In this document: one piece after another, positions 719 through 27,400 of the stretch
How the letters are laid out: every line of letters begins with the position of its first letter
Numbering within the stretch: the first letter of the stretch is position 1
Virus record (IMG/VR): IMGVR_UViG_3300006751_000064
Location: 1 to 33,634 of that record
DNA from: a virus
Length of the DNA stretch: 33,634 bases
Direction: 5' to 3' (one strand)
The notes under the pieces: model-generated
Seen by the model: the letters and a program-made list of their open reading frames with translations, nothing else
Databases searched by the model: none
Told to the model about the DNA's origin: nothing
Translations under genes and position numbers: made by a program

Positions 719-874
719 ATGTCTTTAAGAGATATAATAGGAGAACCAAAAAGAGATTGGACTAATAAAGAGTGGTTACAATATGCACAGATAATGTATC
801 ACTCTCCTTGGATAGATGTTGTGGAAAAAGAATATTGGAAGGATACAATAAAGAGACTAAGTAATCCACAGTAA
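719..874 (+). CDS. Hypothetical 51-aa protein
   Basis: The ATG follows the TAG of the previous gene without any spacer. The product is mixed-charge and rich in tryptophan (four W in 51 residues) and begins MSLRDIIGEPKRDW. No motif or family is recognised. It is the last gene of the packed run; a 332-bp non-coding region full of repeats follows. A longer open frame on the opposite strand runs across this gene, but this reading is preferred because of strand, packing and the stop/start junction. Confidence 0.5.
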   Translation: MSLRDIIGEPKRDWTNKEWLQYAQIMYHSPWIDVVEKEYWKDTIKRLSNPQ

Positions 875-880
875 TCACAC

Positions 881-917
881 AGTTTTCCACATTTAGTAGA
901 GTAATCTGTGGAAAACT
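881..917. repeat. 11-bp perfect inverted repeat
   Basis: AGTTTTCCACA (881-891) and its exact complement TGTGGAAAACT (907-917) are separated by 15 bases. No T-run follows, so this is not an intrinsic terminator. Each arm contains the DnaA-box-like nonamer TTTTCCACA, giving a head-to-head pair. Confidence 0.85.
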
Positions 918-943
918 AACATAAATGCCTTTGAAAATGCCCT

Positions 944-951
944 TATAAATA
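944..951 (+). promoter_or_regulatory. T4-type late promoter octamer TATAAATA
   Basis: Exact match to the T4 late promoter -10 element. It lies between two DnaA-box-like motifs and about 256 bases before the next gene, much further than the other late octamers in this window, so its activity is uncertain. Confidence 0.35.
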
Positions 952-1125
952 TGTACCTGTTGTTTATAAGTTTTCCACAAGGGTGTTAATAAGTGCTGTG
1001 TAATTGTGTGATTAAGTGTTAGTTTTGTAGTCATCTTGGCGAGCAGATTATAACACAAACTCTCCGAAATGTACAGACCCACGAAATAACACTTAATACC
1101 CCACACAGTTTTATTCACAATCCGT

Positions 1126-1133
1126 CATAAATA
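1126..1133 (+). promoter_or_regulatory. Late promoter-like octamer CATAAATA
   Basis: The same octamer as the well-placed elements at 29686 and 31993. It lies just upstream of the sigma-70 promoter at 1145, so the gene at 1207 could have both an early and a late start. Confidence 0.35.
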
Positions 1134-1144
1134 CGCATATTGAC

Positions 1145-1173
1145 TTGACAGTTTTCCACAGTCATTCTATAAT
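1145..1173 (+). promoter_or_regulatory. Consensus sigma-70 promoter
   Basis: TTGACA (1145-1150), a 17-bp spacer, then TATAAT (1168-1173): a perfect match to the bacterial consensus. The spacer contains TTTTCCACA at 1152-1160, so a protein bound there would occlude the promoter. It points at the 53-residue gene starting at 1207. Such promoters are expected for early genes of T4-like cyanophages, which use the host polymerase. Confidence 0.85.
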
Positions 1174-1206: not shown

Positions 1207-1368
1207 ATGTCTTCTTATCACATAGTAGAGACACAGAAAAGATATAGAATTACACTAGATTTGTCAGTTGAAAGTGACTTTAATCCTCATGATATTGATT
1301 TCGAAAAGTTATTTAAATTGAATGGTGATTACGAGGATGTTTCTGTCTACGTAGAGGACTTAACTTAA
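1207..1368 (+). CDS. Hypothetical acidic 53-aa early protein
   Basis: The ATG lies about 33 bases after the -10 box of a consensus sigma-70 promoter, making this a likely strongly expressed early gene. The product starts MSSYHIVETQKRYRITLDL, is acidic (pI clearly below 7, many D and E in the second half) and looks like an alternating beta-strand N-terminus followed by a helix (HDIDFEKLFKL). No family is recognised. A second repeat-bearing promoter region follows at 1369-1498, so it is probably a single-gene unit. The small size, acidity and strong promoter suit a host-takeover peptide, but that is inference. Confidence 0.65.
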   Translation: MSSYHIVETQKRYRITLDLSVESDFNPHDIDFEKLFKLNGDYEDVSVYVEDLT

Positions 1369-7065: not shown

Positions 7066-10000
7066 ATGGCAACCAAAAGAGTTCAACTTAACAAGATTGT
7101 AAGGGATCAGATGCCCTCTCATATTAGAGAGGACAACCCTTTAGTTGGTGAATTTTTAAGTCAATATTATCAGGGCCAAGAATATCAAGGTGGTCCGTTA
7201 GATATAATTCATAATCTGGATTCTTATATTCAGTTAAACAAGTCAGGAAGTCTTGTTGGATTCACAACAATTATGAATCCGGTTGGACTATTTGATACGG
7301 AAATCAGTGTTAAGAGTACTCAAGGATTTCCAGATAGTTATGGATTAATTCAGATTGATGATGAGGTTATTACATATACAGGAATAGGAACTACTGCATT
7401 TAAAGGATGTGTTCGTGGTTTTAGTGGAATTACTTCATTCAGAAACCCAGATGAACCTGAAGAATTTATTTTTACAGTTTCTGCAGCATCAACTCATGCA
7501 GTTGGAGTTGGAACTTCTGGTGGTCAAGTATTAAATTTAAGTTCAAGATTTTTAGAAGAATTTTTAAGGAAGTCTAAGCAACAATTCTTACCAGGATTCC
7601 AAAAAGATTTAAATCCATCACTAAATCAAGCTCAGTTTATTCGACATTCGCAAGATTTTTATAATGCCAGAGGAACTGATGAAGGATTCAAAATTATGTT
7701 TAAAAGCCTCTTTAATGAAGAGGTTGATATCATCAGACCAGCAGATTATGTAATCTCACCATCTGATGCTAATTATAGGAAAACTCGTGATATGATCGTG
7801 GAACCCATTCAGGGGGACCCGAATGACTTAGTGAACAAAACGCTCTTCCAGGACCCTGTAGAGAACCTCTCACGGGCATATGGACCTATCTCTATGGTAG
7901 AGAGGATTAGGGTTGGTCTTTTAACAGATACTTATTATAAGATAAGTGTTGATGCGTCTTTTGGTACTAAGGATGGATCTACTGAACTACTATACGGTAC
8001 ATTTGGTGTACATGCTAATTCTAGAGCAGTTGGATCTGTTAGTGTAGGGCAGACATATATTGACGTTGATTCTACCATTGGATTTCCCCAGAAGGGTGGT
8101 TTAACCTTTAAGTATAAAAATGGTACTACTGGGATATGTACATACTCTTCAACAAATATTACTCAGTTCTTAGGAGTCGCTGGAATAACGACTACAATCA
8201 AGAATACAGAACCTATTAAGCAAAATGCCTTTGCCTATGCTTTAGGGCAAGCAGACAGCACTGCAGGGGTCTCTACGGACGGTTTAAGAGTAAGAATCAC
8301 ATCAGTACTACATGACGTAGAAGTACCAAAGACCTTTTATCAGAAGAAAGGATCTAGGATTAAATTAAAGTCTTTAGGAAAGGTTGCACATATAGATGAT
8401 CATAAGTCAAATAATTGGATTTATAATATTTCACCAAGATATAATGTTAATACAATAACTCTACAAGATGCTTCTAACAATACTTATGAAGTAACAACTG
8501 AGGATTTCCATCGAATTAGAATTGGTGATGTGTTAACTGTGAACACTAAGGATAGTTCATTAGACACTACCTATACTGTAACTGACGTAATGAGTAATCT
8601 CATTTTACGTATCAGGGGTGCTGCTATAGGCAATTTGTCTGCAGTAGACAGTATAACAAAAACTATTAAGAAACCTACTTCAACTTTACATCCACATTTA
8701 AACAATTATACTGCAAATATTCAGAATGTTTATATTACAGAAGTTGGATATGCTCATACACAATATACTACAAAGAATTTAGTAGCATCTAATTCACTAC
8801 CATCCTTTAGTGATTCTACTTTAGAACCAAATACTCAAAAAATTACTCTTTCTGGTACTTTTAATGGTTCTGATACGATTATTGGTATAACAACCGGTAC
8901 TCATGATCATAACTTCTTTACTGGAGATGCAATTTACTATACACCACAGAAAGCAGCAAATGGAACCATTATGAGTTTCATGTTTGATGGTGGTAATGGT
9001 GGAGAAGGTCTTTATTTTATAGAAAGAATTAATCATAACGACATAAAGTTAGCAAAATCAAATTCCAACCTTTATGATGGAAATTATGTAACAATATCAC
9101 AAGCGACTGTTCAAACTACTGTCACAAATAATACTTTTGAGAAGTATGATTTCCATAATAAGCAAGTTTTACCACAAAAACTCTTAAGGGAATTTAGTAT
9201 TCCTGTTTATGATGGAAAGAAATATGAAACAACCATTGGTTATAATGGAATGTTGATTAATGGTGTTGAGGTTATAAGTTATAAGTCAAAAGATCTAGTT
9301 TATTACGGAACACTTAAAAATATCAATGTTACTGGTGGTGGATACAATTATGATGTTATGACTCCTCCATTCTTAGCTGTTAATGATGGTGTTGGAGTAG
9401 GTGCTACTGGTTATGTCTCAACTAAAGGAAGTTTTGCAGAAATTAGAGTTCTAGACCCTGGATTTGATTATACGGAAGTTCCTACAATATCAATTAGTGG
9501 TGGTAATGGAGAAGGTGCCACCGCAGAATGTAAGGTATCAACTGTACCTCATCAAGTTGTCTTTAATGCAGGTCCTCTTTCTCAAACAGTTGCTATAACC
9601 ACTACTGTAGTTAAGAATAGTCTTGGAATTAATACTGAGGGTAATTACAACGTTGGATTTTTAACATATCACAAATTCCGTAATTATGAGAGAGTTATAT
9701 ATGATACATTTGGAGAGAAAGCACTTTCTGGATTTGACACAGGAGCATTTTATTATGTTAACACAACTCAACCTGATGGAACAGCTAATGCTAATGGAAC
9801 TTGGGTTGGTAATACTGGTTATACGTGGTATGAAAATAAAACTGTAAGATTACACACAGATTTAAATGAGTGTATCGCTGGTGTTAATACATTACCGTTT
9901 AATGGTTTTGGTGAAGGCAACCATGTATTAAGATCTTTAAATGGAAAAGCACAAGTAACTAGTATTAAGGTTACTGATCCAGGTGAAGGATATGAGAATA

Positions 10001-13000
10001 AGCATAAGACTTGTGGACCAACTGGTATTAATACCGCACTTGATATTATAACAATATGGAATCATGATTATAAATCTGGAGAAGTTATTGAATATAAATC
10101 AGATCCTGATGGTGTTTCTATTGAAGGTCTTTCTAGCGATAAAGAATATTATGTTAATGTTCTGGATCAGAACTCATTTAAACTATCTACGGTTGGTATA
10201 GGAACTACTGTAAAAGATTTCTATTATAAGACCAAGCAGTATGAAAATTTAAGATCTGTTGGGTTAGCAACTCATAATTTCAATTATCCTCCAATTAAGG
10301 TAGAAGTAAGTGGAATTGTTGGTATTGATTCAATAGAAGGAAAAACTTTCGAATGTATTCCTCAACCACTTGTTCGGGGAGAGATTACGTCTATTCATCT
10401 AACTGATAATGGTGTTGGATATGGTGCTTCTGAGATATTGAATTTCAATAGGCAACCACGAATTGATATGTACACTGGAAGAAACGGTGAGTTAATGCCA
10501 ATTGTACATAATGGAGAAATTATTGACGTTGCTATTAATAATAGAGGTGATTCTTATAACACTCCACCTGCAATTTCTGTTGTTGGTGTTGGAACTGGTG
10601 CTGAATTGGTCCCAGAAATTGTTGATGGTAAAATTGTAAATGTTAAGATTAACAAAAAGGGAGTTGGTTATGGTGTATCTACAACTGCTCTTAATGTAGA
10701 ACCAGCTGGAGAATATGGAATTTTCCTTGCAGATCTTGATACATGGCAAGTAAATGAGGTTCAAAAGAACTATGCAAACATTGATGGTTCTGATGTTTTC
10801 TTAGAAAAAGCATTAAGAGGTAATCAGGAACTAGAATGTTCATATGCATATGCACCTAGGAGTTTAAGAAAGGTCATTTACCAAAATGATGCCGTAGGTG
10901 ATCAATTATATGGTATAGAAGATTTATCCCTTTTAAATGGATTAACGGAAGAGGATAAGAGTAGGCATTCTCCTATTATTGGTTGGGCTTATGACGGTCT
11001 TCCAATTTATGGTCCTTATGGATATGAGAATAGTAGTGGTGGCGGTATTACACAACTTAGATCTGGATATTCCGTAGATTATAAGGAACACAGACCTCCT
11101 CTCGGTGTTTTTCCAGCAGAATTCTTCTTAGAAGACTTTACTTGGAATAGTTCAACTGATGAAAAGTATCTTGATGAGAATAATGGACGATATGGTATAA
11201 CTCCTGAATTTCCAAAGGGAACATATGCATATTTCTCTACATTCGACACTACACTAACATCGGGCAACTTACCATCAGGTGCTCCTGATCCTTTTGTTAA
11301 TTATAAGAGACCTGCTTTCCCATATCTACTTGGAAAGTATTATGGTGCTCAACCAAATAATTTTAATACCTTATCAAGGAATAACCAAGAAGAAATTAAC
11401 TTAAATCAAACCTCTTGGGTTAGAAATACTGAACCTTATGAATTATTACAAGATGATAGTTATTATGATTATGTAAAACAATCTTATAAGTACATAGATC
11501 AGGAAACCATTGTTAAGTATGCGGAAGAAGGGTCAATTGATAAAGTTGGAATTGTTACTGGAGGAAAGAATTATGCAATTGGCGATCAACTTATTTTTGA
11601 AGATAAAGTTGCTGATAACTTTGGTGCAGTAGCGAAAGTTTCAAAAGTTGTTGGACCAGGAATTGGGACAATAAAAGTAACTAATACTAAGTTGGTAAAT
11701 ATTGAACTTTATCCTTCTGATAGGGATAAGTGGTTTGTTGGATTCCATACAACACCAGTAGGTATTCAGAATAATGATTTGGTCTATCTTGCTGGAATTA
11801 ATACTACAAATTCTGGACTTGCTGGTAGAAGTTTTAAAGTTGGAATTTCATCTGGTCAATGGATTGTAACACGAGCAATCGGTACAATAGCGGCTACAGG
11901 AATTGTTACTTACTTTAATATTGCGGGTGCTTTACCTAATCCAAATGATAAATTAAATACTCAAGAAATAAGAGAAAATGATATTTTAAGAATCGGTGCA
12001 GGTACTACTACAGTATCAACTGATATTGGTTATCAAGAACAAGTTAAAGTATTAAAAGTTGATAAGCGCAGTTCCAGAATCAGAGTCTTAAGACAATATA
12101 ACGATACGGTAGGAATTGCTCATACTATTAGAACAGTTGTAAATGAAGATCCTAGGTGTTTCTTGATTAATGCTGGATTTAGTACATCATTTGATGGCAA
12201 TATTCAACATGAATATTACTTTGATCCAAGAGAATCTGTTGGATTAAGTACAGTTGCTGGAGTTGGAATTGGAACTACTACAATTATTGAAAATCCTGGT
12301 GGTGGAAGATCCAAAGTTTTCCTTCCTGCAAGATCAATTTATCTACCAAATCACAAATTAAATACTGGTGATCAAGTATATTATAATAGAAATACTGGAA
12401 ATTCTATAGGTATTGCTACAAATGCTTCTAATACTGGTAGTGTTAATCCATATACAACAAATCTTCCTGAAAATGTACCCCTGTTTGTTGCAAGACTTGG
12501 TGATGATTATATTGGATTATCAACAGTTAGAGTAAGTATTGGTAATTCAGGTGGTACGAATTCTTATGATACTTATGTTGGGGCTGCTACATCAACCAAA
12601 GATCAAGGTTTACTTTTCTTCTTAGGTATTGGAACGGGTAGATATCATAGTTTGAGTGTGAAATATGCAGATACTGTAATTGCAGGTATAGAGAAGAATT
12701 TAATAACAGTTTCTACTGCTGGTACTCATGGATTAAGTCATTACGATGATGTCTATCTTACCGTTGATGCTGGAATTTCTACAAATGTACCAATCAAATA
12801 TAATAAAACAAATAGAAAGTTAATTGCTAGAACTTTAGATTTTACTGCTTCTGGTATTACAACTGCTACTGCAGAAGAGGGTGTTGTATCTGCAATTGAA
12901 ATCTTGAAGCATGAATTGCATACTGGAGAAAGAGTTATTCATACCTCTACAGATCCTGCTGATGGATTAATAAATGACGAAGAGTATTTTGTATATGTTA

Positions 13001-16000
13001 TCAATAAGGATAAGATTAAATTATGTGGTAGTAGATTCCAAGCATATCAGAGAAGACCTAAATTTATTCCCATTCAGGGTTCAAAATCTGGAATGCTTAA
13101 TGTGGTTAATCCACCATTAGAATTCTATAAGAATGGTACCGTAACCTTTGATCTATCAGATTCTTCTTTGTCTTATACTCAAGGAGCAACGGTATATCCT
13201 GCGTTCTCTTTCCATCTTTATAAGGATTCAAACTTTGTTCATGAATATGATAGTAATGAGATGGAAACAACATTTAATGTTGTTAGAACAGGTACAGTGG
13301 GAATTGACGGTAAGTTAACATTAACGGTTAATCAATATACTCCAAAAGTACTTTATTATAATTTGGTTGCAAATACTTCAGTAGACAATCTTCAAGTCAA
13401 TAAAGAACTTGTATTAGATACAAAGATTGAAGGAAATAATCTTATTTCAATTAAAGGAAGTCGTTATGCTGGTCAATTTAGTATTCTTGCTACTTCTCCC
13501 AATACTTTTGAATATGATATAAAGCAGTATCCTGAAGTTCCTGAATATACTGCTCCTTCTTCTAAATTAGACTACGAAACAACTTCAAAAACTGCTTATG
13601 GTTCTATTGGATATGTTGCTCTTGCTGATAAGGGAAGAGGATATAAGAGATTACCTGGAATTACAACTGTAAGTACTAAATCAGGATCAGGTGCTCTTTT
13701 AGAAGCTTCTAGTGAGACAATTGGAAAAATTAAGACTACAGAGATAGAAAATATTGGTTTTGATTATCCATGTGATTTCACAATGAGACCACAATCGAAA
13801 CTTCCTCAGATTATTAAGATTGAAGCACTATCTGGACTTAAATTTGTTGGTATTACCTCTTATGGTAGAGGATATAATCAACCACCAGCATTAGTTGTTC
13901 TTGATGGTGTTACTAGGAAGAAAATTGATGATGTTGACTTAAGATATAATTTGGAGACACCAGATGAACCTGGATATGTTGATATCATTCAAAACACTTA
14001 TGGATTATCTAATGTAACTCCATTCATTGTTCCTGTAAACAATCCAAATGGAATTAGAGTCACTAATCTTGTTTATGATTCATCAACTGATAAAGTAACG
14101 GCAACATTAAAGGTTGCATACAGTATTCGTGACAATTTTCCAATCGAAATAGGAGATAAACTATTTGTAGAGAATGTTAGTGTTGGTATTGGTTCGACTG
14201 GTCAGGGATATGACTCACAGTACTACGATTATCAGGCATTTGAGGTTGAATCTGTTCATCCAAATCTAGGTAATGTTGGTATTGTAACGTATAGTATGAA
14301 TGGTTTAGTTCCATCGGGTGCAATACCTGGAAACTTTAATTCTGCGTTATCGTCTGGTATACTGGTTCAAGAGAAATTCTTCCCACAATTTAATCCTCAA
14401 TTAAAACCCAATGTCTTTAATGCTAATGAGGTTGTTAAATCTGAAAGTAGTACTGGTCCAGTACAGGGTCTTGCATATGAGTGGGATGCTGCAAGTAGAT
14501 GGTTGACTGTTGAGGCTTCTAATGATTTTGAAGTTGGTAAGTTAATCGAATCTTTGGACTCTGGTGCTAAAGGAATTATTAAAGAAATTGTTCTCACATT
14601 TGATACAAATTATCTTCTGGATTACTATTCTTTAGTTGATAATGGTTGGGAATATAATACTGGATTCTTAAACGATCCTTTACAGAAAGTGCATGATAAT
14701 GAGTATTATCAGAGTTTCTCATATGCTGTTAAATCTAGAGTTTTCTATGATAAGTGGAAAGATATTGTTAATACTTTAAATCATACTGCAGGATTCCAGA
14801 AGTTTAGTCAACTCCAAGTTGAATCTAAACTTCCTGATGGAAATGCAACGGATTTGCGGGTTGGACTTGCTGGAACTGTTACCGGTATTATAAATCTTCA
14901 GAATGAAGAGAGTTTGCATAATATTAATAGTTTTGACCTAGTTACAGAGAATTTAAAAGATAGGGATCCTGCTGCTGGATTCTTCTCAGATGAAGTTACC
15001 TTCCAGAATCGTATTCTAATTGATTACGCTGAATCTGTTGGAAACAGGGTTTTAAAAATAGATGATCTGAGTCCACAATTTAGAAGTAGACCACGACTAG
15101 AACCTTGGATGGAAGTTGGTAGATGGGATATTTCCAATAATAAAGAAAATAGGTTTATTGTTTATATACGAGATAGGTTATTTACCCAAGAAAGACAAAT
15201 AATGATGGTCAATGCATTGTACGATCCTCTTAGTGGATATTCAATGTCTAACCAATATGGTGCTGTTGATACTGTGGTTGATTTGGGTCAAATGGATACT
15301 GTTGTTGATGGCGATGAAGCAATTTTACAATTCCATCCAAGAAAGTACGAATTTAACAATTATAATGTAATTTCTTTATCATACAATTTAGATGAACTTG
15401 GACTCACAACTTCTTTAACAGCAGTTGGTAGTACTACAATTGGTTCATCAGCAACACCTCCAGGAGCACTGGTTAGCATTGGCGCATCGGTTGTTCTGGG
15501 ATCAGGTGGAACAGAAGTAGAAATTTGTACAGTTGGTACAGCATCTACTACTGGTATTGCTTTAACTACTACTGCTGCTGGTACCCAACAGAATCAATTA
15601 TTTAATCCTAGATCTGCTAAGATTATTGTTTCTGTAGCAACAACTAACGATACTGCTGAATATACTGAAATAAGTATGATTCATGATGGTACGAATGTAG
15701 AATGGCATGATTATGGGCAATTAAGCATTCATTCTAGAAGAGATCCATTAGTTGGTGGTTCTTTAGGAACTTTCCGACCATACTTAGTTGGAGTTGGAAC
15801 TACTGCGTCATTAAGAGTTGGATATACACCAAATGCAGGCATTCAGACTGCATGGGTTAATACAATGACTATCGGGTTCTCATCAGAATCATTTACTGGA
15901 ATAGGAACATATGGACTGAAGAATGGTCAAATGATTTCTAAATCTACTTCAATTGCTTCTGCTGGTGTTGGTCAAACTGTTGGTATTGCGAGTTATATTA

Positions 16001-19000
16001 ACGAATTTGATGGTGCATATTGTATCGTTCAGGTTAAAGATACAACTAATGATAGATATGAGTTCTGCGAAGTTATGATGGTAGACGATGATACAAGTGT
16101 CTATCTAACTGAGTATGGAAATTTACAAATTGGTTCAGGTGCATTCCTTGGAATAGGTACTATTGGTGGAAAGAGAACAGGTACTGTTTCGGAATTAACT
16201 TATACTCCACCTGCTAATACTGCAGTAGAAGTTAAGACCTTTATTAATGCACTTAAAGTTGAAGAAAATTCTGCAGATCCTGCATTAGTAGAACTGCAAA
16301 GTGGTTCTATTAGAAGTGGATTTGATATCTATGATGGAACTTTCTATAGTAAAAAGACAGAATTTGATATTTTACATGGTGGTAATGAAGTCTTTAGAAG
16401 GAATTTTAATGCAGTTGATACGGAAATTATTAGTTTAACCAATAATACAATTGCTCTTCCAGATCATTATTTTGTATCTGGCGAAGAAGTTGTATATACG
16501 GTTAAAGATTCTGGAGAAGCAACAGGTATTGGTACTACTGGAAAGGCTATTGGAATTGCTGCTACGTATTTCCCTGGTATTGGGGCAACGTTAACATACT
16601 TACCATCATCAGTTTTTATTATTAAGAAGAGTGAAAGTTCAATTCAATTCGCAAGAAGTGCTCAAGATGCACTAGTAAATCCACCAGTTCCTATAGATTT
16701 CACAACAGTTGGTATTGGAACTTCTCATAGTGTTAAATCTAGGAATGGAACTGAAAATACAAGAGCATTGATAGCGATTGATAATATTATTCAGTCACCT
16801 ATTGTATCAAGTGGTATTGCTGCTTCTTTATCACAAGACCTTGGTGCTTCCGAAGATGTTGCATATTTCACAGGAATAACATCTTTCTATAGTGGGGATG
16901 ATGTCAAAGTTGATGATGAGATGATGAAAATCGTCCAGATTGGTTATGGATCCACTAATGGGGTTAAAGTTCATCGTCATTGGTTAGGAACTAATATTGT
17001 AGGACATTCATCTCATGCGAAAGTTACCAAACTTTCTGGTGATTATAATATTATTGGAAATCAACTTAGTTTCTCTGATGCACCGTATGGTAACGAACCT
17101 CCTGTAGGATATTCAACAAGTCGTCCTAATGATAGAGATTGGGTTGGGATAACAACATACTCTCATTTCAGTGGAAGAGTCTTTATGCGTTCTGGTGTTA
17201 AAGGATCTGATTATGATGCTTATACTACCAATTATGTACTTGATGATATTTCTCAACAATTTAATGGTCAACGTAAGACTTTCTCATTAGAAGTAGATGG
17301 AAGTACTGTTACTGGAATTTCAACACAGAATGGTATTGTTCTAGTTAATGGTATATTACAAGGTTCTGGAGATTTGAGTGATTATACTTTATCTGAGATT
17401 TCTGGAATTACCTCAATTACATATACAGGAACTGCTGCTTCTGTGCAGTATGATGTAAATAACGCCAATATTCCTGTTGGTGGTCTTATTGTTTCAGTTG
17501 GTTCAACTGAAGGGTTTGGTTACCAACCATTAGTTAGTGCTGGTGCAACCCTCCACTTCAATAACATAGGTGTTGTTACTGCTGTTAGTATTGGTAATAG
17601 TGGATCTGGTTATAGAGTACTGCCAGGTAATGTTGGGGTTGGATCAACTGCACCAGGTGGTGTTGGTATTGCAACAGTTGTTAAAGTTGGTGTTGCTCTT
17701 TCCACTACAGGTAATCCAACAATTCAATATATTGGAACAGCAGCGGTTCATAATGGTGCTGTTGTAAGTATTGCTATTACTCAAACTAATCCAATTTCTG
17801 GAATAGGTACTCAAAATCCAGGAACAGTTGGAACGGGTCAGTCAACATTTAATGCAATAATAGATAATCCAATACCTTATCAAGATATTCCTCTTTGGTA
17901 TAGTTCTTCTTCACCAACTGGTGGTATTGGTACCTTAGCAAGAGCTAATGTTAAAGTTAGTCAAGGATCTAGTATAATCGATTTTGAAATTACAAGTCTT
18001 GGATATGGTTATGGTGCTGGTCAGATATTAACATTACCGACAAGAGATACTTCTCCTGGACTTGCTTATGCAGATGGACAATGTGTTGTAGGAATTCCTA
18101 CAGTATCTGGTGGAACCGTTAGCGAATTTAAGTTAACCTTAGAGAAGGTTAAGCATGATGAATTTAATATGTGGACTATGGGAGAACTTGATGCACTTGA
18201 TGATTTTTCAAGTTACTTTGATGGTGCTAGAAAATCGTTCCCAATTACTTTAGGTGGAGAATCATATGCTATTCAAGGAAGAAAAGGATCGAATATATCG
18301 ATTCAAGAAACTATTATTCTTACTATTAATGATGTTCTACAGGTACCTGGTGAAGGATTCGTCTTTAATGGTGGTGCAAGCATAACTCTTAGTGAAGCAC
18401 CAAAAGTAGGAGATACTTGCAGATTCTTCTTCTATAGAGGAACTGGTGGTGAAGATGTGAAGGATAGAGATATTGTTGAAACAGTTAAGATGGGTGATGA
18501 TCTAGTATTATCATATGATCGTAAGTTTAATGGTACACGAGATCTTCTTCAGTTCCCAAGAACTGTTTCAGAAGTTAAATCTTCTGACCAGGTTGATACT
18601 AACCAGTACTTTGGATATGGATTAGGGGATGATGATACTGAAGTAAGACCTGTTAATTGGATGAAGCAACTTGAAGATAAGTATATTGATGGAAGAATTG
18701 TTCGTAAAGATCGTCCTCTACAAGAACCGAATATCTTCCCAACCGCATATCTAATTCAACCTATTGGTGTTGGATCTACAGCGGTTTGGGTTGATAATTG
18801 CAAACCAATGTTTGATCCTGAGAATGAGAACCCAATTAATAGAGATTTCCAGAAGGATATTGAGATTGTAAATGCAAGTAGTCATTATGATAAGTTTGCA
18901 GGTGCAGCTGGAACGTCAGTAGTTTCTGCTGCAGGTACTGTGTCCTCGATTACTTTATCGACTGGTGGTAAAGGGTATAGTATTGCTCCAGAAGTTAGAA

Positions 19001-19794
19001 TTTCTACTCCTACTGGTATAGGAGGAACTCCTCTTGCTGGTATTGGAACAACTGCTAGAGCAACTGCAACTGCAACTATTGATGCAGATGGAGTTGTTAG
19101 TGGAATTACTATTACTAGTCCTGGACTTGCATATACTAATTTGAGTGTTCCTTCAGTAGTAATTTCTGCTCCAACATATGTTAGAGAAGAAAATACTCTT
19201 GATTCATATAGTGGTGATTATGGAATTATTTCTGGAATTGGTACAACATCTTATACGGGTGTAACTACGGGTATTACCTTTGATTTGTTTATTCCTCAAC
19301 TTTCTCCATTGAGAAATGATAAGATTACAAGTCCTGATGCAATTACGGTATGTGGTCTACAGACTGGTCACTTCTTTATGCTTAACGGAACTAATCTTGG
19401 TAGCGGTGTTACATCTATAGATGCCGCAGGTAATTATGTTGGTGTTGGAACAACTGCTCTTGATAATGTATATGAAGTTGCGCACTACACTGGAATAACT
19501 ACTGTTGGATTTGGTTCAACAGTTCCTGGACCATTGTTAAGGGTAACCACAAGAGTTCATGGATGGAATGGATTAGATGTTGTTGTAGGATGTTCTTCTA
19601 TGGGTCAGGGTATTAGTAGTTCCTTTATAGGCGAATATAGTTGGGGTAAACTCCAATTTAAGGGTAGAATGAGATCAATAGCATACCCAGTTTCTTTGGT
19701 TGATGGTATTACAGGAATCCAAACAGGACCTCAAATTAAGAGGAAGATTGCACTGAAAGCAACGAATTACGTTGATACAGTATTAGATTCTTGA
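7066..19794 (+). CDS. gp7: Giant gp7-like baseplate wedge protein, 4242 aa
   Basis: The largest gene here, about four times the 1032 residues of T4 gp7. It is identified by position between gp6 and gp8 and by residues about 160-250. There FYNARGTDEGFKIMFKSLFN and the following EEVDI resemble the conserved C-terminal part of T4 gp7 (the FYSTKG...LFKVLYNEEVEI stretch). The rest is marine-phage material: GGxGY beta repeats at about 750-825, 1109-1205, 2182-2280, 3504 and 3960-4037; a YHYH domain at about 1215-1440 with GWAYDGLPIYGPYGY at 1306-1320; two FNG/NGxxQ modules near 3392 and 3709; and many GIGTT words throughout. It should be an oversized peripheral wedge protein that may reach beyond the baseplate. 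It has no internal frameshift and no SD. Confidence 0.8.
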   Translation: MATKRVQLNKIVRDQMPSHIREDNPLVGEFLSQYYQGQEYQGGPLDIIHNLDSYIQLNKSGSLVGFTTIMNPVGLFDTEISVKSTQGFPDSYGLIQIDDEVITYTGIGTTAFKGCVRGFSGITSFRNPDEPEEFIFTVSAASTHAVGVGTSGGQVLNLSSRFLEEFLRKSKQQFLPGFQKDLNPSLNQAQFIRHSQDFYNARGTDEGFKIMFKSLFNEEVDIIRPADYVISPSDANYRKTRDMIVEPIQGDPNDLVNKTLFQDPVENLSRAYGPISMVERIRVGLLTDTYYKISVDASFGTKDGSTELLYGTFGVHANSRAVGSVSVGQTYIDVDSTIGFPQKGGLTFKYKNGTTGICTYSSTNITQFLGVAGITTTIKNTEPIKQNAFAYALGQADSTAGVSTDGLRVRITSVLHDVEVPKTFYQKKGSRIKLKSLGKVAHIDDHKSNNWIYNISPRYNVNTITLQDASNNTYEVTTEDFHRIRIGDVLTVNTKDSSLDTTYTVTDVMSNLILRIRGAAIGNLSAVDSITKTIKKPTSTLHPHLNNYTANIQNVYITEVGYAHTQYTTKNLVASNSLPSFSDSTLEPNTQKITLSGTFNGSDTIIGITTGTHDHNFFTGDAIYYTPQKAANGTIMSFMFDGGNGGEGLYFIERINHNDIKLAKSNSNLYDGNYVTISQATVQTTVTNNTFEKYDFHNKQVLPQKLLREFSIPVYDGKKYETTIGYNGMLINGVEVISYKSKDLVYYGTLKNINVTGGGYNYDVMTPPFLAVNDGVGVGATGYVSTKGSFAEIRVLDPGFDYTEVPTISISGGNGEGATAECKVSTVPHQVVFNAGPLSQTVAITTTVVKNSLGINTEGNYNVGFLTYHKFRNYERVIYDTFGEKALSGFDTGAFYYVNTTQPDGTANANGTWVGNTGYTWYENKTVRLHTDLNECIAGVNTLPFNGFGEGNHVLRSLNGKAQVTSIKVTDPGEGYENKHKTCGPTGINTALDIITIWNHDYKSGEVIEYKSDPDGVSIEGLSSDKEYYVNVLDQNSFKLSTVGIGTTVKDFYYKTKQYENLRSVGLATHNFNYPPIKVEVSGIVGIDSIEGKTFECIPQPLVRGEITSIHLTDNGVGYGASEILNFNRQPRIDMYTGRNGELMPIVHNGEIIDVAINNRGDSYNTPPAISVVGVGTGAELVPEIVDGKIVNVKINKKGVGYGVSTTALNVEPAGEYGIFLADLDTWQVNEVQKNYANIDGSDVFLEKALRGNQELECSYAYAPRSLRKVIYQNDAVGDQLYGIEDLSLLNGLTEEDKSRHSPIIGWAYDGLPIYGPYGYENSSGGGITQLRSGYSVDYKEHRPPLGVFPAEFFLEDFTWNSSTDEKYLDENNGRYGITPEFPKGTYAYFSTFDTTLTSGNLPSGAPDPFVNYKRPAFPYLLGKYYGAQPNNFNTLSRNNQEEINLNQTSWVRNTEPYELLQDDSYYDYVKQSYKYIDQETIVKYAEEGSIDKVGIVTGGKNYAIGDQLIFEDKVADNFGAVAKVSKVVGPGIGTIKVTNTKLVNIELYPSDRDKWFVGFHTTPVGIQNNDLVYLAGINTTNSGLAGRSFKVGISSGQWIVTRAIGTIAATGIVTYFNIAGALPNPNDKLNTQEIRENDILRIGAGTTTVSTDIGYQEQVKVLKVDKRSSRIRVLRQYNDTVGIAHTIRTVVNEDPRCFLINAGFSTSFDGNIQHEYYFDPRESVGLSTVAGVGIGTTTIIENPGGGRSKVFLPARSIYLPNHKLNTGDQVYYNRNTGNSIGIATNASNTGSVNPYTTNLPENVPLFVARLGDDYIGLSTVRVSIGNSGGTNSYDTYVGAATSTKDQGLLFFLGIGTGRYHSLSVKYADTVIAGIEKNLITVSTAGTHGLSHYDDVYLTVDAGISTNVPIKYNKTNRKLIARTLDFTASGITTATAEEGVVSAIEILKHELHTGERVIHTSTDPADGLINDEEYFVYVINKDKIKLCGSRFQAYQRRPKFIPIQGSKSGMLNVVNPPLEFYKNGTVTFDLSDSSLSYTQGATVYPAFSFHLYKDSNFVHEYDSNEMETTFNVVRTGTVGIDGKLTLTVNQYTPKVLYYNLVANTSVDNLQVNKELVLDTKIEGNNLISIKGSRYAGQFSILATSPNTFEYDIKQYPEVPEYTAPSSKLDYETTSKTAYGSIGYVALADKGRGYKRLPGITTVSTKSGSGALLEASSETIGKIKTTEIENIGFDYPCDFTMRPQSKLPQIIKIEALSGLKFVGITSYGRGYNQPPALVVLDGVTRKKIDDVDLRYNLETPDEPGYVDIIQNTYGLSNVTPFIVPVNNPNGIRVTNLVYDSSTDKVTATLKVAYSIRDNFPIEIGDKLFVENVSVGIGSTGQGYDSQYYDYQAFEVESVHPNLGNVGIVTYSMNGLVPSGAIPGNFNSALSSGILVQEKFFPQFNPQLKPNVFNANEVVKSESSTGPVQGLAYEWDAASRWLTVEASNDFEVGKLIESLDSGAKGIIKEIVLTFDTNYLLDYYSLVDNGWEYNTGFLNDPLQKVHDNEYYQSFSYAVKSRVFYDKWKDIVNTLNHTAGFQKFSQLQVESKLPDGNATDLRVGLAGTVTGIINLQNEESLHNINSFDLVTENLKDRDPAAGFFSDEVTFQNRILIDYAESVGNRVLKIDDLSPQFRSRPRLEPWMEVGRWDISNNKENRFIVYIRDRLFTQERQIMMVNALYDPLSGYSMSNQYGAVDTVVDLGQMDTVVDGDEAILQFHPRKYEFNNYNVISLSYNLDELGLTTSLTAVGSTTIGSSATPPGALVSIGASVVLGSGGTEVEICTVGTASTTGIALTTTAAGTQQNQLFNPRSAKIIVSVATTNDTAEYTEISMIHDGTNVEWHDYGQLSIHSRRDPLVGGSLGTFRPYLVGVGTTASLRVGYTPNAGIQTAWVNTMTIGFSSESFTGIGTYGLKNGQMISKSTSIASAGVGQTVGIASYINEFDGAYCIVQVKDTTNDRYEFCEVMMVDDDTSVYLTEYGNLQIGSGAFLGIGTIGGKRTGTVSELTYTPPANTAVEVKTFINALKVEENSADPALVELQSGSIRSGFDIYDGTFYSKKTEFDILHGGNEVFRRNFNAVDTEIISLTNNTIALPDHYFVSGEEVVYTVKDSGEATGIGTTGKAIGIAATYFPGIGATLTYLPSSVFIIKKSESSIQFARSAQDALVNPPVPIDFTTVGIGTSHSVKSRNGTENTRALIAIDNIIQSPIVSSGIAASLSQDLGASEDVAYFTGITSFYSGDDVKVDDEMMKIVQIGYGSTNGVKVHRHWLGTNIVGHSSHAKVTKLSGDYNIIGNQLSFSDAPYGNEPPVGYSTSRPNDRDWVGITTYSHFSGRVFMRSGVKGSDYDAYTTNYVLDDISQQFNGQRKTFSLEVDGSTVTGISTQNGIVLVNGILQGSGDLSDYTLSEISGITSITYTGTAASVQYDVNNANIPVGGLIVSVGSTEGFGYQPLVSAGATLHFNNIGVVTAVSIGNSGSGYRVLPGNVGVGSTAPGGVGIATVVKVGVALSTTGNPTIQYIGTAAVHNGAVVSIAITQTNPISGIGTQNPGTVGTGQSTFNAIIDNPIPYQDIPLWYSSSSPTGGIGTLARANVKVSQGSSIIDFEITSLGYGYGAGQILTLPTRDTSPGLAYADGQCVVGIPTVSGGTVSEFKLTLEKVKHDEFNMWTMGELDALDDFSSYFDGARKSFPITLGGESYAIQGRKGSNISIQETIILTINDVLQVPGEGFVFNGGASITLSEAPKVGDTCRFFFYRGTGGEDVKDRDIVETVKMGDDLVLSYDRKFNGTRDLLQFPRTVSEVKSSDQVDTNQYFGYGLGDDDTEVRPVNWMKQLEDKYIDGRIVRKDRPLQEPNIFPTAYLIQPIGVGSTAVWVDNCKPMFDPENENPINRDFQKDIEIVNASSHYDKFAGAAGTSVVSAAGTVSSITLSTGGKGYSIAPEVRISTPTGIGGTPLAGIGTTARATATATIDADGVVSGITITSPGLAYTNLSVPSVVISAPTYVREENTLDSYSGDYGIISGIGTTSYTGVTTGITFDLFIPQLSPLRNDKITSPDAITVCGLQTGHFFMLNGTNLGSGVTSIDAAGNYVGVGTTALDNVYEVAHYTGITTVGFGSTVPGPLLRVTTRVHGWNGLDVVVGCSSMGQGISSSFIGEYSWGKLQFKGRMRSIAYPVSLVDGITGIQTGPQIKRKIALKATNYVDTVLDS

Positions 19795-21408: not shown

Positions 21409-24400
21409 ATGGCTCAACAAACCAATTTAAACGTTTCACCATATTTTGATGATTTTGATCCAAAATCTGGATATCATAAGGTGCTTTTCAAACCTGGATA
21501 TCCTGTTCAGGCTAGAGAATTAAGTGGAATGCAGTCTATTCTGCAGAATCAACTTGAGAAGTTTGGTCAACACTTCTTTAAAGAAGGTGCAAAGGTAATT
21601 CCTGGAAATACTGCATATTCTCCAGAATATTTTGCTGTAGAACTGAATAACACTCATCTAGGAGTGCCTGTCGATTATTATATTGAACAATTAGTTGGTA
21701 GAAAAATAATTGGATTAACCACAGGTGTAACTGCAATTATTAATAAGGTCTTAGAGGCAGAGATGTCTGAAAGGGGTAATTTGACCATTTATGTTTCATA
21801 TATTTCAGCTGGTGTTGAAGATAGTTCTATAAAAGTGTTTAATGATGGGGAACTTTTAACTGCAGATAGTGACATAACCTCTGGTCCAGAGAATAATGCT
21901 TATATACCTTCAGGGGAATCATTTGCATCATGTATACCGAATGATGCAACTTCTACTGCAGCATCCTTTTCAATATCAAATGGTGTTTACTTTATAAGAG
22001 GAAATTTTGTAAATGTAGAAGATGAAACTATTATTTTAAGTCAATATGATAATTCTCCTAATGGTAGAATTGGTTTAAGAATTGAAGAAGATATTATTAA
22101 CGCTGATGAGGATGAAACCCTATCAGACAACTCTAAAGGATTTAATAACTATGCTGCACCTGGTGCAGACCGTTTAAAGATTACATGTAGTTTATATTCA
22201 AAACCGTTAGATGATTTTAATGACTCCAATTTTATTGAATTAGCAGTTATTGAAGATGGGACTCTGCAGAGTCAAACCACTAACACCAAATATAATTATA
22301 TCGCAGATGAACTTGCACGTAGAACACATGCAGAGTCTGGTGATTATACTGTAACTCCTTTTGATGTTATCGTAAAAAATTCTTTAAATGATCATCTTGG
22401 AAATAATGGTGTTTATGATGCTGGTCAATTTACTTCCGGTGGAGAATTAGCCAGTGACGATCTTGCAATATATCAGTTTGGTCCAGGTAAGGCATTTGTA
22501 AAGGGATATGAGATAGAAACAATTAGTTCTACTTATATGGATGTTCCAAAACCAAGAACAACTAAGAGATTAGAAGGTCAACAAGTTCAATATAAAACAG
22601 GAAGTACCTTATCAGTTAATAATGTTAAGGGATTGCCTACGATTGGAATTGGTAATACTTATATTGTCAGTTTAAGGAGTGAAAGAATAGGAATTGGTCA
22701 ATCTCTAAGTACAGCATCAGGTCAAGAAATTGGTGTTGCTAGGGTTTATGATTGTGCGTTAGAATCTGGTTCATATTCAACCTCAAATAATAATCAGAAT
22801 ATTTGGGATATTTCCCTTTATGATGTTCAATTATCTTCTCGTATAACATTAAATGAAATAGTTTCCCTTAGTATTCCAACTTATGTAAAAGGAAAGTATA
22901 GTGGTGCTACTGGATTCTTGAAGGATGCAGTTACTAATAGTACTTCTTTAGATATTTATGAAAAGTCTGGAGAATTTTTAGCTAATGAACCATTTGAATT
23001 TAATGGTACACCAAACAATCGGGTTGCTATTGCAGTAACTTCCTATGGAATGGGTGATGTTAAATCAATTTATGGTGGACCAGATTTAGGTAATGTTGGT
23101 TCTGCAAGTACATTTAATTCAGACACACTACAAAAACCTCATTTTACAATTGGTGGTGCTAGTATTACCGCTAGAGCACAAGCAACTGGAAAATCTGTAG
23201 TTACTAGTGAGAATCCATTATTCCCAGGAGATCTAAAAGTAAATAATATTCTTCAATTTGGTGGATTTGGAAACAATGAATCTTCATATGCAAGAATTAC
23301 TGATGTAACAACTACTAGTGTTAGTATAACTGGAGTTACAACTGTTACTGGAGTTGTAGAAGGGGAAATACCTCAGGTTGGTGCTACTACTTTGTATGTT
23401 CCAAATATGCAAGTTATAAGTACTCCAATTTCAGAGTCAACAGAGACTAGTTTATATACATTAATGCCCAAACCCTTTATTTCTGATGTTGATTTAGAAG
23501 ATGCAGTATTGACTATTAGAAAAGCGTATACTGTTGATGTAGATGGTACAAATGGTCAACTTACAACATTATTGGTTACAGACACAAATGAATCATTTAC
23601 TCCTTATGATGAAGAGAGATATGCATTTACTAGATCAGATGGTACAACGGTAGCACTTACTGACGATATGTTCTTGTTTACTGCAGGGGCTACTCAGTTG
23701 CAACTTAAGAATTTAGGATCTTCAGATATTGGGGCTACATTAATAGCAACATTAAAGAAATCTAAACCAACTGCAAAGATTAAGAGAAAGAATAGAGTAA
23801 ATTCTATTATTGTTAATGCTTCAAAACTTACACAGTCTGGTATTGGTGCAACAACTAAGAATGATGGTTTGGTTCCTGGTAATTTCCCAATAGGAACTAG
23901 AGTTCAAGATGAAAAAATTGTATTAAATTATGGAGATATTGTTGATATTCTTGGTATTTTTGAATCTAATGATGTTGGTAATGCAACTGCACCAAAGATG
24001 ATTCTATCTTCATTAACCGGTTCTTCTGGAAAAACTGAAGATTTGGTTGTGGGTGAGAAAATAATTGGAGAAAATAGTGGTGCTATAGCATATTGTGCAG
24101 AAAAGATAACTAATGCACAAATCACATATCTTACTCAGAATGAAACTGGATTTGAAGAAGGTGAAGCAGTTACTTTTGAAGAATCAAAAGTTAAAGGTAT
24201 TGTAACGACATTAGATGCACCTAGTCGGAATATAAGTGCAAACTATAGTTTTGATAGTGGTCAAAAAAGTACGTTCTATGATTATGGATTTATTCAAAGA
24301 CGAACTAATGCTAAAGCACCAACAAAGAGTTTAAAAATTTATTTCACCAATGGTTATTATGAGGATAACGATGAAGGTGATATTACAACAAAGAATTCTT

Positions 24401-27400
24401 ATGATACTTGGGATTATTCTGCTGATATTCAGACTATTAATGGTGAAAGAAATACTGATTCAATTGATATAAGACCGAAAGTTGGTACATATACTGTAGT
24501 TGAGGGTGCAAGATCACCATTAGAATTCTATGGTAGATCCTTCACTGCATCGGGAAATTCAGCTGCTAATATTTTGGCATCTGATGAATCTATTATTACA
24601 AATTTCTCATTCTATCTTGGTAGAACTGATAGAGTTTTCTTATCAAAAACTGGAAATTTCCAAATTCAATATGGTGATCCAGCAGAAAAACCAGTACAAC
24701 CTGTAGGGATTGATGACGCATTAGAAATTGCAACAATATCGTTACCTCCTTATCTTTTCATTATGGAGGATTCTACAGTTGACTTCTTATCTCATAAGAG
24801 ATATAGAATGAGGGATATTAGAGATCTTGAGAACAGAATCAAGAATCTTGAATATTATACTTCTTTGTCCATGCTTGAATCAGAAACAGCAAATTTATTT
24901 GTTCCTGATGCTGATGGTTTAAATAAATTTAAATCAGGATTCTTTGTTGATAATTTTACATCTATTAGAGCACAAGAAGATGATGTTAAATTAAGGAATA
25001 GTATAGATCCTCAAGAACAAGAAATGAGGCCACAACACTATACAAGTTCTATTGATTTGATGGTTGGACCCGTTGAAGGTATTGATGCTAGTACAGATAC
25101 TGAATTTTTAGTACCAGAAGGTACAAATATAAGGAAAGGTGCAGGTGTTGTTACACTTGATTATACTGAAAAGGAATGGTTGAGTCAGCAATTTGCAACT
25201 AGAACAGAAAGTGTTACTCCATTCTTGGTAAGTTTCTGGCAATTATCTGTAAAATTAACACCATCGTCTGATACTTGGACAGATACTGCAAGAATTAAAG
25301 CAAAAATCACTAAAACTGAAGGTAATTTTGCTGGAATTATGGCCCAGGCTCAAAATCAGTGGGGAGTTGATCCACAAACTGGTCTTAGTCCAATTTTATG
25401 GAATGCTTGGGAGACTAATTGGACAGGACAAAGGCATAATGATCGTCATGAGCAAAGGGACGTGAAAAAAACTAAGAAAAAACGGGTTATTATTAAAAGA
25501 GGATGGATTAATGGTGGTAGAGGAAGATCAAGAATACGAGATGATAAAATTACTAAAGTTAAAACCTTACAAACTACAACTAGGGATACTTATGATACCG
25601 GAGTTTCTACTAGAGATGGTATCAAAAAGATAGTTACTGAACAATGGGATAATGAATCTTTAGGAGATAAGGTTGTTAGTAGAGACATTGTTACGATAAT
25701 GCGCTCTAGGAATGTTGAGTTTAGATGTACTAAGACTAAACCATTAACACAACTTTATGCATTCTTTGATAATCAAGCTGTAACAAAATATTGTACTCCA
25801 AAACTACTGGAGATCACTATGAATAGTGGTAAATTCCGTGTAGGTGAAACTGTTATTGGGACAATGCCTGGATCTGGTGTACAACCAGAAGGTACTGATA
25901 AAGCTTTCATAAAGTTTAGAGTTGCACAGGCAAACCATAGGACTGGACCATATAATGCACCAAAAGAGGTTTATAAGAAAAATCCTTATCAATCTCAAGT
26001 TGGAGCAACTGGACTTGAAACATTCTTAGGAACACCTGGAACTGTTCAACTTAAGAGTTCTGGTAGTGCAGATATGCCTTCTACATATTCAGCAACTTCT
26101 ACAATATTGAATATTGATACATTCTCACTATCTGACCAACCACAAGGTGGTTACTTTGGATATGCTAGTACGGGGATGGAGTTAAGAGGAAATTCGAGTG
26201 GAGCTCAAGCAAAAGTTAGCAACTTGAGATTGGTATCTGATCTTAGTGCTAATCTAGTTGGAACTTACTATATTCCAAATCCAAATACGGGCAATCATCC
26301 TAAATTTGAAACTGGAGTGAGGACATTTACTTTAATTGATAATCAGAATAACGATCAAAATGATACTGATACGTTTGGTTCAGATAATTACACTGCTAGT
26401 GGAACTTTAGAAACAGTTCAAGAAACAATTATTTCTACTAGAAATGCTGTAGTTACTCAGAAAAATCACAGTGCAACAAAATCAGCTGAGAGATTTAGTG
26501 GTTCTAAAGTTATTGCGAAAGATGTTGTTATTAGTACTAGAGATAGTGTAAAGGAAGGAAAACCACGTTGGTATGACCCTCTAGCACAATCCTTCCAGGT
26601 TACAGAAGATAAAGGGATCTTTGTTACTAGTTGCGATATTTACTTCAAGACTAAGGATGACATGGATATTCCCATGACTTTCCAACTTAGAACAATGAAG
26701 GATGGTACTCCAACACAAAAGGTTATACCATTCTCCGAAATTGTTAAGAGTCCCGATCAGATTAATCTTTCATCAACAGGAACTGTTGCAACTACGTTTG
26801 AATTTGAAGCACCGGTGTATCTTGCGGGAGCAAATACAGAATATGCAATTTGTCTCGCATCGTGGTCAACGAAATATCAAGTGTTTATTTCTAGAATTGG
26901 AGAGTCTGATTTATTAACTGATGAATTTATTTCTCAGCAGCCTTATTTGGGATCACTCTTTAAATCGCAGAATGCTTCAACTTGGGATGCTTCTCAGTGG
27001 GAAGACCTTAAGTTTAAGATGCGAAGAGCAATATTTAAGACAAATGGAACTATGGAGGTTTATAATCCAGTTCTATCTGAAGGTAATGCACAAATTCCGG
27101 TATTGCAACCAAATTCTATTAACGTACAATCAAGAATGATTAGAATTGGTATAGGATCAACTCTTCAAGATACTGATCTTACTATTGGTAATACTATTAA
27201 CCAAACTGGATCCAATGCAACTGGAGATTATGTTGGAAATGCTGGTATTGGAACTAGTGCGATGGGAGTTATTAATGCTGGTTTGGGATATACTCCAAGT
27301 GCAGGTGAGTATGGATTTATCGGTGTTGGACTTACTAATGTAACATCTAGTGGCGATTATATGTATGCTGATGTATTTGTTGCTGATGGTGTAGCAGTTG

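Follow-up and report, generated by a model that had tools for sequence, protein, structure and literature searches.

A conserved cluster of cyanobacterial-type DnaA boxes in a putative replication and promoter control region of T4-like cyanophages

The viral DNA stretch analyzed here, called the window in the following (33,634 nt, IMG/VR record IMGVR_UViG_3300006751_000064), contains a compact cluster of DnaA boxes of the cyanobacterial type that recurs, together with promoter elements in a conserved order, in many T4-like cyanophages (Kyanoviridae). The reading that we favor, with a probability of roughly 45%, is that of a control region read by host DnaA, which would act as a replication origin and, in the lineage of the window, also as a DnaA-gated early promoter. 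Given that the box cluster is found at a fixed place in the genome, the virus probably lets host DnaA start or time the copying of its DNA or the expression of its genes. In the proposed mechanism, host DnaA would bind to the core of the region, a head-to-head pair of cyanobacterial-type boxes mostly separated by 14–16 bp, and would then either help to open the DNA or make use of a leftward transcript, resulting in a phage replication origin. Of two sigma-70 promoters, a conserved divergent one is predicted to fire leftward, in the direction of the pair, and the other would fire rightward into the block of genes that leads to the baseplate genes. In the lineage of the window, a box occupies the spacer of the early promoter, where DnaA may block this promoter and thereby couple early transcription to the DnaA state.

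T4-type late genes are present in the window, which matches Bellamy, S-SM2, and other cyanomyoviruses over the gp25/gp6 baseplate region; in its structural region, two open frames are very long (7066–19794, 4242 aa; 21409–29064, 2551 aa). The nonamer TTTTCCACA, the cyanobacterial DnaA box (PMC4674748), occurs in five exact copies in this 33.6-kb fragment of the phage genome, and the whole set lies inside 341 bp. The initial annotation had described a cluster of five nonamers, all of which were recovered at their places and on their strands, as well as a head-to-head 11-bp inverted repeat, which indeed exists and is formed by the first two copies of the 11-mer AGTTTTCCACA common to four of the boxes (the fourth copy spans 1150–1160 on the plus strand). 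However, the cluster as described was incomplete, a TTTTCCACA copy on the minus strand at 820–828 having been overlooked. When 600 windows were simulated under first- and third-order Markov models, they had on average only 0.3–0.7 TTTTCCACA copies, and two copies within 341 bp were never observed (0/600). Clustering of DnaA boxes beyond chance, a characteristic of oriC-type regions, was thus found in the window, in its relatives, in comparison with the simulations, and in complete genomes; the simulations and the relatives together rule out chance clustering. A count of the degenerate pattern TTWTNCACA, which had been proposed as a check, gave no enrichment over the whole window (7 found versus 6.0 expected), but six of the seven matches lie within the 341 bp. 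The plain pattern, lacking whole-window enrichment, is too loose to serve as a criterion.

Table 1. Elements of the putative control region and adjoining features (window coordinates)
Feature	Position	Strand	Basis or conservation
DnaA-type box 1, AGTTTTCCACA, left arm of head-to-head pair	881..891	+	Arm invariant in 13 aligned regions
DnaA-type box 2, AGTTTTCCACA, right arm of pair	907..917	-	Also in alignment of relatives
TATAAATA, matches NATAAATA late promoter of T4-like cyanophages	944..951	+	Sequence; consensus from PMC2984593
DnaA-type box 3, AGTTTTCCACA	969..979	+	Kept in 11/13 aligned regions, TTTTCAACA in two
Predicted divergent sigma-70-type promoter TGTACA-17-TATAAT, TG before -10	1047..1075	-	Leftward, towards the boxes
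CATAAATA, second match to late promoter consensus	1126..1133	+	Relatives retain ATAAATA or ATAA
Perfect sigma-70 consensus promoter TTGACA-17-TATAAT, 12/12	1145..1173	+	Sequence
DnaA-type box 4, in spacer of perfect promoter	1152..1160	+	Sequence, alignment, contigs
Further exact TTTTCCACA, in ORF 719-874, without AG extension	820..828	-	Membership uncertain
TTATTCACA, fits TTWTNCACA	1111..1119	+	Not conserved in alignment of relatives
53-aa gene of phrog_12516, first gene after perfect promoter	1207..1368	+	

The nonamers of the pair are 15 bp apart in the window, which falls into the peak gap class of cyanomyovirus contigs (14–16 bp). In an alignment of 13 regions, the arms of the pair, the late-promoter element, the third box, and the divergent and early promoters are kept, and the sequence between these elements is variable. 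ATAAATA of the first late-promoter element is retained in most of the aligned regions, and the −10 and start region of the divergent promoter are among the most conserved stretches of the alignment, whereas the TTATTCACA match is probably incidental. The usage of late promoters and of early sigma-70 promoters in T4-like cyanophages has been described previously (PMC2984593). After the small gene, a second strong sigma-70-like promoter (1404–1432, TTGACA-17-TATGAT, 11/12, TG before −10) leads into a conserved element at 1573. Upstream of the phrog_1574 gene, this element, CCCTAACCTACAGAGGYGACAAA (1573–1595), shows almost no variation in about 60 of 80 relatives (alignment by position of 51 distinct sequences); a GC-rich stretch lies before it, and five of 24 complete phages have it once per genome. 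The element includes a Shine-Dalgarno-like GAGGTGA without a start codon, and neither an Rfam match nor a consensus RNA fold was found for it.

Among 23 complete cyanomyovirus genomes, nine contain the head-to-head pair exactly once and, where checked, it is situated within the genes that lead up to those for the baseplate. In Syn9, S-RIM2, and S-ShM2, which belong to other genera, the pair, a stretch of about 50–70 bp, the divergent block, and the rightward TTGACA promoter recur in this order; Syn19 and S-PM2 have the pair and the divergent block, and Syn19 also has a rightward promoter-like site. The divergent block, which was read by eye in the complete genomes, is related to the divergent promoter of the window in these five phages (with a poor −10 in the Syn9 group) and is also kept in Bellamy, S-SM2, and SynMITS9220M01. 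Elsewhere in these genomes, the nonamer is found only rarely and at scattered positions, the letter-reversed pair pattern has no match in any of the complete genomes, and the T4 genome contains no such pair. The presence of the same cluster in related cyanophages, a check suggested by the initial annotation, is therefore borne out only in part, as the exact pair is absent from 14 of the 23 genomes, including Bellamy, SynMITS9220M01, S-B05, S-SM2, P-SSM2, and P-SSM4; S-SM2 has two boxes and one near-box at the same site. The pairs of Syn19, S-SM1, S-SSM5, S-RIM2, and Syn33 have a common ATGCGGA core in the gap, and three members of this group carry an extra tandem box (TGTGGAAATGTGGAAAA). In S-PM2 (NC_006820, 19231–19264), the pair overlaps annotated tRNA-Asn and tRNA-Leu genes, an annotation that may be wrong or shifted.

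The neighborhood was also inspected, without bias towards the boxes, in 80 relatives fetched via the neighboring phrog_1574 protein. TTTTCCACA was found 59 times upstream of the phrog_1574 gene (211 kb) and not once in the gene and downstream of it (424 kb), compared with 4 and 11 occurrences, respectively, for the letter-reversed control. The box cluster was present in only nine of the 32 relatives having enough upstream sequence. Taken together, the box region is widespread, but not universal.

The box in the promoter spacer has a narrower distribution. A scan of viral contigs for TTGACAGTTTTCCACA returned 31 contigs, and in 23 of these, all cyanomyovirus-like, TATAAT follows at 17 bp, resulting in the pattern TTGACA.GTTTTCCACA.7.TATAAT; in the remaining eight, TATAAT is missing at this position, and a cyanomyovirus-like gene is absent from seven of these. 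Contigs were regarded as cyanomyovirus-like if at least two ORFs were similar to Syn9, S-ShM2, S-RIM2, S-PM2, or the window. Fragments are frequent among the contigs and, because contigs within one lineage are related, their number does not equal the number of independent events. A DnaA box overlapping the core promoter, as expected for a DnaA-repressed promoter, is thus found in 23 contigs. As the box fills the spacer of a perfect early promoter, bound DnaA should also block this promoter. The dnaA and mioC promoters of E. coli are repressed by DnaA and likewise have a DnaA box overlapping a sigma-70 promoter; in contrast, the phage promoter drives a small phage gene, and its repression is a prediction.

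The geometry of the pair is shared by viruses and bacteria. At least 120 viral contigs contain the head-to-head pair, at least 98 of them cyanomyovirus-like, and the gap among the matches listed has a sharp peak at 14–15 bp and is mostly 14–16 bp; the controls gave 21 letter-reversed pairs in total and 19 tail-to-tail arrangements. These scans retrieved exact boxes only, and arm variation is not readable from them. Direct (head-to-tail) TTTTCCACA pairs with a gap of 12–13 bp (a 21–22 bp repeat) are also common in viral contigs, and 66 of the 115 direct-pair loci analyzed (about 57%) are cyanomyovirus-like. In bacterial genomes, the head-to-head pair likewise prefers a 14 bp gap. Among 27 bacterial genomes that were hand-picked from 119 pair-bearing loci, the dnaA positions being not yet known, 12 from several phyla (including G033, G041, G043, G047, G053, and G056) have the pair 0.3–2.3 kb from a dnaA domain, and in eight of these 12 the gap is exactly 14 bp (TTTTCCACA-N14-TGTGGAAAA). 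One Synechococcales genome has a pair with a gap of 12 bp whose end lies 41 bp ahead of the dnaN match, and this pair belongs to a group of six boxes within 555 bp. The occurrence of this geometry beside dnaA and dnaN indicates that the arrangement is used by DnaA-controlled regions and, judged from these positions, TTTTCCACA-N14-TGTGGAAAA is a general DnaA-box geometry.

A DnaA box-binding domain (domain IV) was detected neither in the 23 cyanomyoviruses nor in T4 (24 phage genomes), and a phage-encoded DnaA was rejected on these grounds. Together with the pairs at dnaA and dnaN, this makes host DnaA the likely reader of the phage boxes. The earlier assignment of the boxes to the cyanobacterial type is well supported by the literature (PMC4674748), by the pairs next to dnaA and dnaN, and by the conservation in relatives. 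Exact TTTTCCACA boxes in a non-coding region are also a feature of the cyanobacterial oriC beside dnaN (Synechococcus elongatus, Anabaena, Cyanothece), and the Synechococcales genome shares the head-to-head pair; this comparison with host oriC is based on the literature and one environmental genome. In contrast to cyanobacterial oriC, the phage region belongs to a lytic phage with its own replisome, adjoins phage promoters, has fewer boxes, and lacks dnaN.

Several observations count for a function as origin, namely the single pair per genome, the order conserved across genera, the promoter directed towards the pair, an unstable stretch in four genomes, and the single theta origin predicted for Syn9, as cited in PMC2984593, where its location is not given. 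The unstable stretch, 60 bp beside the pair, is among the least stable 3–5% in Syn9, S-ShM2, S-RIM2, and S-PM2, whereas the same stretch of the window, at 33%, is not unusually unstable. Counted against an origin are this lack of instability in the window, the many genomes without the pair, the small share of the unbiased relatives with a cluster (nine of 32), the phages' own T4-type helicase loader, and the lack of a GC-skew sign. Cumulative GC skew has no minimum at the site in four genomes, but the test is weak because nearly all genes are on one strand, and we regard GC skew as uninformative about the origin. T4-like phages have their own replisome and the gp59 helicase loader, and T4 initiates replication without DnaA. 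The origins of T4 are multiple, are of the R-loop type, and do not require DnaA. The cyanophage region resembles them in belonging to a T4-like phage and in having a predicted promoter that fires into the region that would be opened; it differs from T4, which has several origins, no DnaA requirement, and no such pair. In a T4-type R-loop origin, a transcript stays paired to the template and primes DNA synthesis, and for the cyanophage region a leftward promoter towards the pair is predicted from the sequence.

It is possible, although we consider it rather unlikely, that host DnaA acts at the region only as a transcription factor, repressing the early promoter with the spacer box and tuning the divergent and late promoters without starting replication, so that the timing of phage genes would follow DnaA activity. 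Such a role would fit the box in the spacer of a 12/12 promoter in 23 contigs and the interspersion of the boxes with early, divergent, and late promoter elements, and many of the bacterial pairs adjoin dnaA and could serve dnaA autoregulation. However, the spacer box is limited to the lineage of the window, and no other part is kept as widely as the pair. In Syn9 and S-RIM2, moreover, the rightward promoter lies about 140–190 bp downstream of the pair, which would be an unusual distance for a repressor site.

That another host or phage protein reads AGTTTTCCACA and the likeness to DnaA boxes is coincidental appears improbable. The phage motif does exceed the nonamer, with a preceding G in 76–80% and a following A or G in about 92–98% of the arms, and the enriched variants go beyond the DnaA consensus: enrichment was seen for TTATCCACA and TTTTTCACA, but likewise for TATTCCACA and ATTTCCACA, an only partly DnaA-like, mixed outcome that also counts against the favored reading, and the variant test was discarded as proof of DnaA specificity. 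Yet the nonamer is the exact cyanobacterial box, the pair with its gap is also found beside dnaA and dnaN, and G is the commonest preceding base in bacterial arms, too (48%).

A decoy, with boxes that titrate host DnaA as the phage copies rise and thereby stop host initiation, is very unlikely. The datA locus of E. coli titrates DnaA in this way and is also a box cluster outside oriC, and near-perfect boxes clustered in a non-coding region would multiply with the phage copy number; for the phage, only the presence of the cluster is established as a likeness. In contrast to datA, the phage region has a strict pair geometry and conserved promoters, and a sponge needs neither these nor a fixed orientation, gap, and place; moreover, the site comprises no more than two boxes in many genomes. 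No report of phage DnaA boxes titrating host DnaA was found in the openly accessible papers searched. With regard to the three functions put forward in the initial annotation (origin, decoy, or operator), the anatomy favors a combined origin and promoter control region over a pure decoy. Least probable of all is an RNA hairpin formed by the inverted repeat in a transcript: the leftward strand folds better than shuffled sequences (11-bp stem formed by the pair, z −2.9), but conservation extends to unpartnered single boxes, one of which lies within a promoter spacer, no Rfam family matches near threshold, and the arms vary in S-SM2 and in Syn19, S-SM1, and S-SSM5 without compensation in the partner, which led us to reject it.

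T4-like phages are generally regarded as initiating replication independently of DnaA and, to our knowledge, the replication start site of a cyanomyovirus has only ever been predicted (the single origin of Syn9). In the openly accessible literature searched, cyanophages and DnaA boxes appear together in only two papers, both on host genomes. The conserved DnaA-box region offers a precise place to test for the start of replication. In S. elongatus, binding of DnaA to oriC drops in the dark and in the presence of photosynthesis inhibitors, while the DnaA level remains constant (PMC6478999). Because cyanobacterial DnaA binds oriC well only during photosynthesis, phage DNA synthesis and early transcription would be tied to light if the boxes are read by DnaA; by analogy, a DnaA-read phage element would inherit the light dependence of its reader. 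A host oriC mimic dependent on host DnaA as the actual replication start of T4-like cyanophages, with DNA synthesis and early transcription tied to light via DnaA, is a speculative and on balance doubtful proposal. If the region is read by DnaA, light and phage replication would be directly linked through it in viruses that are very abundant in the ocean.
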